Assembly (NCBI RefSeq): GCF_000426345.1
Contig: NZ_AUFE01000001.1
Coordinates: 264,348 to 328,347, forward strand
Reading direction: 5' to 3'
Source of the DNA: Cupriavidus phytohabitans
GTDB taxonomy: Bacteria; Pseudomonadota; Gammaproteobacteria; Burkholderiales; Burkholderiaceae
Length of the DNA stretch: 64,000 nt
Part shown: positions 14,677 to 60,262 of the stretch, one piece after another
How the letters are laid out: each line of letters begins with the position of its first letter
Position numbering within the stretch: the first letter of the stretch is position 1
Translations under genes and position numbers: made by a program
The notes under the pieces: model-generated
What the model was told of the DNA's origin: nothing
What the model saw: the letters and a program-made list of their open reading frames with translations, nothing else
Databases searched by the model: none

Positions 14677-16391
<1,715 letters not shown>

Positions 16392-57889: not shown

Positions 57890-59431
57890 TCAGATCTGCG
57901 GGTTGATCTTCTGCACGGCCTTGTCGTGCAGCTTGTTCAGCGCGGCCAGGTAGGCCTTGGCCGATGCGGCGACGATATCCGGGTCGGTGCCCACGCCGTT
58001 GACGATGCGGCCGGCCTTGGACAGGCGCACGGTCACTTCGCCCTGGGCCTCGGTACCACCGGTGATCGCGTTCACCGAGTACAGCACCATCTCGGCGCCG
58101 CTGGACACGCGCGACTCGATCGCATGCAGCGTGGCGTCCACGGGGCCGTTGCCCTCGCCTTCGCCGCTCTGCTCCTGGCCGTCCATGCTGAACACCACGC
58201 GTGCATGCGGGCGCTCGCCGGTCTCGGAACGCTGCGACAGCGAAATGAAGCGGAAGTGCTCGTTCGCGTCATGCTGCGCCTCGTTCGAGACGATCGCCAT
58301 GATGTCTTCGTCGAAGATCTCGGCCTTCTGGTCGGCCAGCTCCTTGAAGCGGGTGAAGGCGGCGTTGACTTCGCTCTCGCTGTCGAGCTCGATGCCGAGC
58401 TCCTGCAGGCGCTGCTTGAAGGCATTGCGGCCCGACAGCTTGCCCAGCACGATCTTGTTGGCGGTCCAGCCCACGTCCTCCGCGCGCATGATCTCGTAGG
58501 TGTCGCGCGCCTTGAGCACGCCATCCTGGTGGATGCCCGAGGCATGCGCAAAGGCGTTGGCGCCGACCACAGCCTTGTTCGGCTGCACCACGAAACCGGT
58601 GATCTGCGATACCAGCTTGGAGGCCGGCACGATCTGCGTGGTGTCCACGCCGACGTCCATGTTGAAGTAGTCGCGGCGGGTCTTCACCGCCATCACCACC
58701 TCTTCCAGGCTGGTGTTGCCAGCGCGTTCGCCCAGGCCGTTGATGGTGCACTCGACCTGGCGCGCGCCGCCCAGCTTGACCGCGGCCAGCGAGTTGGCCA
58801 CAGCCATGCCGAGGTCGTTATGGCAGTGCACCGACCAGATCGCCTTGTCCGAATTCGGAATGCGCTCGCGCACCGAGCGGATCAGCTCCGCGTAGCCTTC
58901 CGGCACGGCATAGCCCACGGTGTCCGGGAGGTTGATGGTGGTCGCGCCCTCTGCGATCACGCCTTCGAGCACGCGGCACAGGAAGTCCATGTCCGAGCGG
59001 CTGCCGTCTTCGGGCGAGAACTCGATATCGTCGGTGAACTGGCGCGCAAAGCGCACTGCCAGGCGGGCCTGCTCGTACACCTGGTCCGGCGTCATGCGCA
59101 GCTTCTTCTCCATGTGCAGCGCAGACGTAGCGATAAAGGTGTGGATGCGGAACGAGTTGGCGGGCTTGAGCGCCTCGGCCGCGCGGGCGATGTCCTTGTC
59201 GTTGGCGCGGGCCAGCGAGCAGATGGTCGAGTCCTTCACCACCTGGGCGATCGCGCGGATGGCTTCGAAGTCGCCATTGGAGCTGGCCGCAAAGCCGGCC
59301 TCGATCACATCGACCCTCAGGCGTTCCAGCTGGCGCGCGATGCGGATCTTTTCCTCGCGGGTCATGGAAGCGCCGGGCGACTGCTCGCCGTCACGCAAGG
59401 TGGTGTCGAAAATGATGAGTTTGTCAGACAT
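57890..59431 (-). CDS. leuA: 2-isopropylmalate synthase
   Basis: LeuA catalyses the first committed step of leucine synthesis, condensing acetyl-CoA and 2-ketoisovalerate. The 513-residue protein begins [20 protein letters not shown] (metal Asp and catalytic Arg), has [20 protein letters not shown] (metal His pair) and the catalytic region [13 protein letters not shown]. The C-terminal regulatory domain, which binds leucine for feedback inhibition, includes [18 protein letters not shown]. The upstream leader looks like a leucine attenuator. Confidence 0.97.
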
Positions 59432-59526
59432 TTTGTGGAGCTCCTGAGTAGCTTCTGGTGTGCTGTCCCCGGCCTGCCGTGTCCGGGCTTACCGCCTGTT
59501 CCGCGCTCCACGGCTGTGGAATGCAA

Positions 59527-59560
59527 AACGCCCCGGCGTGCACGAGCAGGCCGGGGCGTT
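59527..59560 (-). terminator. predicted leuA attenuator terminator
   Basis: A 10-bp perfect stem (AACGCCCCGG with CCGGGGCGTT) and a 14-base loop, ending in TTTT on the minus strand. It lies between the leader peptide and leuA, about 95 bases before the leuA ATG. Placed there, it would block leuA transcription unless the leader fold changes. Confidence 0.7.
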
Positions 59561-59578
59561 GGTGTTCCTTACGGATTC

Positions 59579-59608
59579 CGCGCTAAGGGTAGCGTTGTCC
59601 TCAGCGCG
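59579..59608 (-). promoter_or_regulatory. hairpin overlapping the leader peptide stop codon
   Basis: CGCGCTGAGG pairs with CCTTAGCGCG (one G-T pair) across a 10-base loop; the TGA stop of the leader is inside the 5' arm. A ribosome on the leader would control whether it forms, as for pause or antiterminator hairpins in attenuators. Confidence 0.5.
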
Positions 59609-59681
59609 CGCGCGTCCCGACCTGATGGCCTAGTAGGCCACCTAGGGTGGTGCGGGCGAGTAGGACTTGGCGCGAAATCAT
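59601..59681 (-). CDS. leucine-rich leader peptide of leuA (leuL-like)
   Basis: A 26-codon frame on the minus strand that starts MISRQVLLARTT and continues LGGLLGHQ before a TGA. It has five leucines, four of them CTA, a codon expected to be very rare in this GC-rich genome. The stop is followed by a terminator-like hairpin and then leuA. This is the standard plan of an amino acid attenuator. No ribosome binding site precedes the ATG; the predicted transcription start is on the ATG itself. Too short for most gene callers. Confidence 0.7.
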   Translation of the reverse strand: MISRQVLLARTTLGGLLGHQVGTRAR

Positions 59682-59688
59682 GGGAGCG

Positions 59689-59717
59689 ACTATAGCTGGT
59701 TTGGCGCGCAGGTGCAA
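59689..59717 (-). promoter_or_regulatory. predicted sigma-70 promoter of the leuA leader
   Basis: TTGCAC (59717-59712), 17 bases, then TATAGT (59694-59689) on the minus strand. This is a near-consensus promoter at ideal spacing. Seven bases follow before the leader ATG at 59681. The -35 box lies just 42 bases past the stop of the BON-LysM gene. Confidence 0.7.
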
Positions 59718-59758: not shown

Positions 59759-60262
59759 TCAGCCCTTGGGCGGGATGCGCAACTTCTGGCCCGGGTAGAT
59801 CTTGTCCGGATGCGACAACATCGGCTTGTTGGCTTCAAAGATCCTGTTGTACTCGGCGCCGTTGCCGTAGGCGGCCTGTGCGATGGCCCACAGCGTGTCG
59901 CCCTTGACCACGGTATGCCATTGCGATTCGGTCGATTCGACGTTGACCGACATCTTGTCCTCGACCTTGTCCACGCCTTCGACGTTGCCAGCGCAAAGGA
60001 TGATCTTCTCGCGCGTGGCCTGGTCCGGCGCCACGCCGAACACCGTCACCAGGCCCTGCGAGCCATCCACCTGCACCATCAGACCGGTGGCATCGAGCCC
60101 CATCTTCTTGATGTACGCCTCGATCGCATCGCCCGCGGCACGGTTGGCGGCATCGACCTTCTCGGCCGATGCATCCGCCGCCACGGCCTGCTGCGCCGCC
60201 TTGGCCTCGCCGGTGCCGAACAGCTTTTCCCCCGCTTCCTTGATGAAGTCGAACATGCCCAT
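59759..60262 (-). CDS. kbp: BON and LysM domain protein, Kbp/YgaU homolog
   Basis: A 167-residue protein closely like E. coli Kbp (YgaU), a cytoplasmic potassium-binding protein. It begins MGMFDFIKEAGEKLFG, has a BON domain (VTVFGVAPDQATREKIILCA and NVEGVDKVED) and ends in a LysM domain (WHTVVKGDTLWAIAQAAYGN and IYPGQKLRIPPKG). It lacks a signal peptide, like Kbp. The start at 60262 has GGAGG upstream. Confidence 0.92.
   Translation of the reverse strand: MGMFDFIKEAGEKLFGTGEAKAAQQAVAADASAEKVDAANRAAGDAIEAYIKKMGLDATGLMVQVDGSQGLVTVFGVAPDQATREKIILCAGNVEGVDKVEDKMSVNVESTESQWHTVVKGDTLWAIAQAAYGNGAEYNRIFEANKPMLSHPDKIYPGQKLRIPPKG

Follow-up and report, generated by a model that had tools for sequence, protein, structure and literature searches.

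The window, the 64,000-nucleotide stretch of Cupriavidus phytohabitans DNA that we analyzed, carries on its minus strand a gene that we take to be leuA, for 2-isopropylmalate synthase. Inspection of the sequence placed the parts of its leader at 59717-59525 (-), in the order promoter, open reading frame (ORF), hairpin across the stop codon, terminator and leuA (Table 1). All the parts named in a preliminary description of this DNA were found in the order it gave, and its reading of the promoter as TTGCAC-N17-TATAGT, of a 26-codon peptide with four CTA codons and one CTC codon, and of a hairpin across the stop was confirmed in the sequence. The peptide is MISRQVLLARTTLGGLLGHQVGTRAR, with leucine at 5 of the 26 codons (CTA at 7, 13, 16 and 17; CTC at 8). 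The term "near-consensus promoter" in the preliminary description suits the -10 element but not the -35 element, and a consensus scan of the region reported no promoter and no terminator at its thresholds. The terminator had been described as a 10-bp hairpin ending in TTTT; the hairpin and the TTTT are present, but the stem has 11 bp (59560-59550 paired to 59537-59527), and inside it there is an additional stem of 3 bp. The U-run is short, consisting of four T, two of which lie inside the stem. The 162-nt leader RNA, from the ATG to past the terminator, had a predicted folding energy of -76.7 kcal/mol (z -4.5), and 0/200 shuffles were equally low. A small gene at 59759-60262 (-), with an end that looks LysM-like by eye, immediately precedes the leader on this strand, and its transcription may therefore run on into the leader.

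Table 1. Features of the leuA leader and leuA in the window, listed in the direction of transcription.
Feature	Position	Strand	Remarks
-35 element TTGCAC	59712..59717	-	17-nt spacer to -10; 3/6 consensus
-10 element TATAGT	59689..59694	-	5/6 consensus; 7 nt before ATG
Leader ORF (leuL-like)	59601..59681	-	ATG at 59681; 26 codons and TGA at 59603-59601
Leu codons 7-8 (CTA CTC)	59658..59663	-	Sequence; relatives also have I, F or T at codon 8
Leu codon 13 (CTA)	59643..59645	-	Sequence and relatives
Leu codons 16-17 (CTA CTA)	59631..59636	-	Likely point of the presumed stalling
Antiterminator 5' arm CAGGTCGGG	59616..59624	-	Predicted; codons 20-22, two codons past last CTA
Hairpin across stop codon	59579..59608	-	10 bp, 59608-59599 with 59588-59579
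Antiterminator 3' arm CCCGGCCTG	59547..59555	-	Predicted; overlaps terminator 5' arm
Intrinsic terminator AACGCCCCGGC...GCCGGGGCGTT and TTTT	59525..59560	-	Predicted, -28.2 kcal/mol
Likely leuA ribosome-binding site AGGAG	59441..59445	-	By eye
leuA, 2-isopropylmalate synthase	57890..59431	-	513 aa; start at 59431; putative regulated gene

Leucine leaders upstream of leuA in relatives

Regions upstream of leuA were collected in three draws. The genus/family draw held 55 regions (L001, L037-L090), with matches in 39/40 and 59/80 genomes, the 30 best matches of each search supplying the loci; the named-contig draw held the best 80 of at least 583 relatives; and in the order draw leuA was found at E 1e-120 in 106/120 genomes, 100 being fetched and six left out (two duplicates, one contig edge, one inner stop, two partial), with the leuA start recognized by motif in 82/100. 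An earlier listing rule that required CTA codons proved too restrictive for distant relatives; in its place we used a rule blind to codon choice: a -10-like TAnnnT (at least 4/6), 5-10 nt, and an ATG followed by 10-60 codons with at least four leucines and at least 15% leucine. A leucine-rich ORF behind a -10 element preceded leuA in 49/55 genus/family regions, 56/80 named regions (best 80 of at least 583) and 41/82 order regions, although a few of the order matches may instead be fragments of the gene upstream. The same rule gave 0, 1 and 2 matches on the respective reverse complements and means of 0.1, 0.55 and 1.2 matches on 20 shuffles (maximum 1, 2 and 3). No leader was found by the rule in 24 of the 80 named regions, again the best 80 of at least 583, including those of Collimonas (3), Massilia, Pseudoduganella, Pandoraea (2), Diaphorobacter, Pararobbsia and Rhodoferax (3); one Cupriavidus region (U2) misses the rule by leucine count alone.

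A looser leucine threshold yielded candidates in 154/217 regions, and 148 leaders were left after six spurious ORFs (L222, L229, L240, L244, L252 and L260) had been dropped by eye. Of these, 69 possess an intrinsic terminator and 79 lack one, an assignment that depends on a loose terminator finder: L087, L197, L203, L207, L212, L221 and L227 were moved by eye to the no-terminator set, which still holds the doubtful members L074, L075, L085, L100, L111, L135 and L246. The 69 terminator leaders (45 distinct) are of Cupriavidus/Ralstonia type (46, including L072 from another genus), Comamonadaceae type (20) or Polynucleobacter type (3).

The distance from promoter to start codon varied little. 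TATAGT or TATATT lay 6-7 nt before the ATG in 49/49 rule-positive genus/family regions, and the gap was 6-7 nt in 49/49 genus/family, 55/56 named and 28/41 order matches where the rule permits 5-10 nt. TTGC was found at exactly 17 nt spacing in 118/148 leaders; with a spacing of 16-18 nt allowed, TTG was found in 124/148, compared with 4.7% of random positions. Judging from its own spacing, the window ORF is probably leaderless; in B. cenocepacia, leaderless genes have been described that are immediately preceded by a promoter motif (PMC4603805).

In a LeuA tree of 135 rows (FastTree, with many weak forks and some doubtful labels), the window's row falls among named Cupriavidus, and at least three switches between having and lacking a terminator are required. 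A leader with a terminator is present in all 46/46 rows of the clade formed by the window and named Cupriavidus/Ralstonia; in 26/135 leuA regions the rule finds no leucine leader. Outside the leucine run the peptide differs widely between families; the position before leuA is kept. The comparison with relatives suggested in the preliminary description held in the Cupriavidus/Ralstonia clade (46/46), where the leucine codons and their frame are retained along with the promoter spacing and the terminator, but the conserved stems that it predicted fail in Burkholderia, because a leucine leader is kept there but no U-tract terminator was found.

The upstream parts of two regions (L149:24-91 and L151:105-173) match Rfam ilvH RNA (RF02993); second leuA-like genes, 72-81% identical over ~385 residues, occur at G203:C50, G218:C1, G200:C172, G221:C1 and G078:C45; and the -10 rule found no leaderless ORF of 8-80 codons in a 7-kb stretch around ilvB in the window's genome.

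CTA had been expected to be rare in the genome and clustered in the leader, and the counts agree: it makes up 0/144 leucine codons in six window genes and 4/5 in the window leader. Across 66 terminator-class leaders, 211/309 leucine codons are CTA, compared with 6/2314 in their leuA genes, and its share is higher in the leader than in leuA at 66/66 loci, the window's included. At 43 no-terminator loci the counts are 128/310 for the leaders and 9/1603 for leuA, the leader being higher in 41/43. Comamonadaceae-type leaders have CTA at 43/91 leucine codons, and CTG prevails near the stop in more distant leaders. The Salmonella leu leader reportedly uses rare CUA codons as well (Carter, Bartkus and Calvo, 1986).

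Predicted antiterminator pairing and ribosome position

Beyond the preliminary description, we add the probable leaderless start and a candidate antiterminator, in which CAGGTCGGG pairs with CCCGGCCTG over 9 bp (59624-59616 with 59555-59547; duplex -16.4 kcal/mol). Terminator sequences differ between the Cupriavidus/Ralstonia and Comamonadaceae types, and each is matched by an arm just past the leucine codons; the predicted regulatory pairing is preserved between these two groups despite their different terminators. The antiterminator arm pairs are CAGGUCGGG/CCCGGCCUG, ACGGGC/GCCCGU and CUGGGGU/ACCCCAG, and the arm starts 6 nt (22) or 7 nt (12) past the last upstream leucine codon in 34/45, with the other 11 at -3 to 13.

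Cupriavidus/Ralstonia leaders scored 22.9 with their own arms, compared with 13.9 and 10.0 with swapped arms and a recoding mean of 17.1. The corresponding values were 17.3 compared with 15.4 and 12.2, and a recoding mean of 12.5, for Comamonadaceae, where the swapped arms were longer; the Polynucleobacter own-arm score was 18.0, compared with 18.0 on Cupriavidus arms and 13.3. The own mean was reached by 8, 6 and 53 of 200 recodings and by 8, 21 and 9 of 200 codon-order shuffles for the Cupriavidus/Ralstonia, Comamonadaceae and Polynucleobacter types, respectively. By these own-versus-swap scores, which compare arms of different lengths, arm specificity is therefore shown for Cupriavidus/Ralstonia, modest for Comamonadaceae and absent for Polynucleobacter, whose three leaders fit the scheme without it. 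Weak antiterminators were seen in L072, with only 4 contiguous pairs, and L164, with a score of 12.5.

The effect of ribosome position was modeled in a folding walk, in which the RNA between the 5' end and the position 11 nt beyond the first base of the A-site codon was masked. The remaining RNA made before the terminator 3' arm was then folded. At the window, the 9-nt arms formed 8 pairs with the A-site at codons 1-10, 9 pairs at codons 11-16, 6 at codon 17 and 0 from codon 18. Between A-site codons 16 and 21, any ORF pairing with the terminator 5' arm amounted to 12, 9, 6, 3, 2 and 0 pairs, and a narrower-arm count to 9, 6, 0, 0, 0 and 0. With the ribosome at the leucine codons the modeled antiterminator arm was paired, and this pairing was lost within a few further codons in 10/10 hand-picked leaders, falling to at most 4 pairs within three codons past the leucine run (with the alternating leucine codons of L177 and L179 counted as a run). 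Helix, walk, swaps and recodings together point to an antiterminator that would exclude the terminator depending on where the ribosome stands.

In the model, the stop-codon hairpin is enclosed by the loop of the antiterminator helix. The window's antiterminator also forms without a ribosome or with a ribosome at the first codons, so this leader would have no clear protector hairpin enforcing termination when it is untranslated; in L098, L072, L149 and L147, a ribosome at the first codons left 0 to 2 antiterminator pairs. As soon as the terminator 3' arm has been made, the model favors the terminator wherever the ribosome stands, and the switch would therefore have to be kinetic, as in classical cases.

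Leaders lacking a U-tract terminator, and a putative arginine counterpart

Examples of the no-terminator class are L173, L180, L183 and L190 and the Burkholderia-type L076-L090 and L101-L133. Order-level leaders often end CTG CTG CTG CGC nnn GCG CGC stop (LLLRxAR). Burkholderia, Paraburkholderia and Caballeronia have another leucine leader, of LLAGAPLRALALARLPR type, in which a hairpin is conserved and the bases past the stop are 38% C and 22% G; a U-tract terminator was not found in the leaders examined from these three genera. In 34 selected sequences, five others (L184, L202, L227, L241 and L246) having been dropped by eye, the 40 nt past the stop contained 38% C and 15% G compared with 29% and 27% just before leuA, and the C-G excess was higher past the stop than before leuA in 29/34. 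A strong excess (at least 0.3) in the first 25 nt past the stop was seen in only 16/34, and an excess of at least 0.2 in 31/78 of the no-terminator class compared with 10/69 of the terminator class. RNAalifold found no conserved fold past the stop in a gappy alignment of 34 no-terminator sequences (-0.8 kcal/mol). From their base composition, these leaders perhaps attenuate through Rho; they may also exert translational control.

A weak full-length match of the window leader to Rfam RF02884, BcKCsr7 (15.6 bits, E 0.76), had raised the suspicion that this RNA is a leuA leader. This was rejected, as its loci precede argD, and the window leader is not a member of the family because 15.6 bits is far below the cut-off of 59. 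RF02884 has matches in 120/200 family genomes at E <=0.001, 81 of them above the cut-off, and the loci upstream of argD are L007-L036 and L272-L278. At the 30 best-scoring loci, both a downstream argD start motif and an ORF with at least four consecutive arginines were found in 30/30, the L009 leader being read by eye where the script chose an unrelated ORF. A strict argD motif, matching 1/6 further, weaker loci, proved too strict, as an argD start was readable downstream in 5/6, L275 being the exception; an arginine-codon ORF lies 7-8 nt downstream of a -10-like box in 6/6, with just two adjacent arginines in the window's genus. In the window's own genome, argD is preceded (L278) by TTGACA, 17 nt, TATATT, 7 nt, an ATG, MHTTFNRRRSFRTSLPTGVPRG and then a terminator, with an Rfam score of 28.4 bits (E 0.028) against BcKCsr7; a similar argD leader lies in g24 (L276). 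Like the window leader, BcKCsr7 combines a -10 element, ~7 nt, an ATG, a codon run and a terminator, but it lies before argD and encodes arginine codons rather than lying before leuA with leucine codons. A review gives Bc_KC_sr7 as nc5U30, an expressed RNA of B. cenocepacia, 147 nt by its coordinates (PMC10987360). These sequence features suggest that BcKCsr7, filed as an sRNA, is an arginine leader-peptide attenuator of argD; no arginine leader at argD was apparent by title or abstract start in the literature searched.

Proposed mechanism, alternatives and known systems

Given its candidate antiterminator, we consider it highly probable that the window leader is a leucine-responsive, ribosome-mediated transcription attenuator of leuA. 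The relatives, the antiterminator pairing and the folding model support the leucine attenuator that the preliminary description had placed before leuA, and we count in its favor the argD leader of similar design, with arginine codons, in the same genome. From the parts, their conservation and their pairing geometry, we infer the start site, stalling, termination and leucine response as follows. Transcription would begin with the A of the leader ATG or an adjacent nucleotide, and a ribosome would load on the leaderless RNA. With leucyl-tRNA charged, the ribosome would pass CTA17 and cover codons 20-22, blocking the antiterminator, such that the terminator would fold and transcription would end ~95 nt upstream of the leuA start. 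With leucyl-tRNA short, the ribosome would stall at the rare CTA codons and leave CAGGUCGGG free to pair with CCCGGCCUG of the terminator 5' arm once made, and RNA polymerase would read into leuA.

The preference of the full-length RNA for the terminator at every modeled ribosome position is also what a constitutive early terminator behind an accidental short ORF would give, which would set the leuA level and sense nothing; however, the frame, the leucine codons and the excess of CTA persist from family to family, and in separate clades the end of the ORF is complementary to the terminator arm, which makes this very unlikely. We see as little chance that termination in Cupriavidus, too, depends on Rho rather than on an intrinsic terminator: many relatives that have the ORF lack a U-tract terminator and show a C-rich stretch past the stop, but a strong hairpin with a T-run stands in 46/46 rows of the Cupriavidus/Ralstonia clade, including the window's stable one.

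The CTA codons could be a by-product of CTAG palindromes (CCTAGG, CCTACTAGG) serving as a DNA operator or a structural RNA hairpin. CTAGGTGGCCTACTAGG is common to most Cupriavidus leaders examined and lies within a -14.9 kcal/mol hairpin, but Comamonadaceae-type CTA occurs in contexts like CTA CTG CTA, free of that palindrome, leaving this reading extremely improbable. Somewhat less remote, though still improbable, is action in trans, with the terminated RNA being an sRNA or the peptide a regulator and attenuation being secondary. In its combination of a leaderless ORF with a terminated RNA, the leader is laid out like rnTrpL of Sinorhizobium, for which a trans-acting sRNA and a regulatory peptide (peTrpL) are reported (PMC7298713); against this, the peptide outside the leucine run varies widely between families while its place before leuA is kept. 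An extra trans role may exist in one clade.

Beyond the leucine-responsive attenuator at the window, we propose, tentatively and at somewhat less than even odds, that one ancestral leaderless leucine leader before leuA spread across much of the window's GTDB order (beta-proteobacteria) while its termination module was exchanged. Intrinsic terminators with matching antiterminators would serve Cupriavidus/Ralstonia, Comamonadaceae and Polynucleobacter, and elsewhere Rho would act via a C-rich site right past the stop of an ORF often ending LLLRxxR; leaderless leader-peptide attenuation would be general there, with arginine (argD), now filed as an sRNA, as a second case. The leuA of Cupriavidus and many relatives would gain a testable leucine switch missing from the family libraries searched, the existence of similar leaders that have an intrinsic terminator and others that lack one makes the exchange of termination modules in evolution directly testable, and, in light of the argD parallel, an RNA published as a Burkholderia "sRNA" seems in fact to be an attenuated leader.

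The element had been said to lie outside standard annotation, and this agrees with the family libraries. Rfam gave no match at the window leader at its cut-offs; with E values up to 5 allowed, two matches below threshold appeared, neither a leucine leader, and Pfam and NCBIfam gave none up to E 5 for the window leader and five other leader peptides. Homology to enterobacterial leuL was not detected in Pfam, NCBIfam or Rfam up to E 5, short sequences being hard to detect. Elsewhere in the window, 15957-16240 (+) matches Rfam 5_ureB_sRNA at 123.8 bits, perhaps only through urease coding similarity. By title or abstract start, none of the matches listed from the open-licence literature concerned a beta-proteobacterial leu leader; a survey of proteobacterial attenuators (Vitreschak, 2004) is the most likely to cover one. 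The term leuA has 0 occurrences in PMC2965389 and in PMC6321483.

Among known systems, the leu operon attenuator of Escherichia coli has a leader peptide with leucine codons and a terminator and antiterminator that compete according to amino acid supply (PMC6123439), and Salmonella is named as having a leu attenuator (PMC7298713). The window leader resembles these leuL elements in its leucine-codon leader peptide before leuA and in opposing a terminator to an antiterminator; it differs in that its ORF is probably leaderless, precedes a single leuA rather than leuABCD and matches no leucine-leader family in Pfam, NCBIfam or Rfam. The LEU element of Actinobacteria is likewise a leucine-codon ORF before leuA, but there a pseudoknot or hairpin base pairs leucine codons with the leuA Shine-Dalgarno sequence (PMC1262725), whereas the window has an intrinsic terminator and antiterminator instead. 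Sinorhizobium meliloti trpL (rnTrpL) shares the leaderless leader-peptide ORF and the attenuated transcript (PMC7298713); it concerns tryptophan in alpha-proteobacteria, and the likeness drawn here is one of layout. Since leu leader attenuation is established and a leaderless leader is known from S. meliloti trpL, the mechanism proposed for the window leader is one already known.
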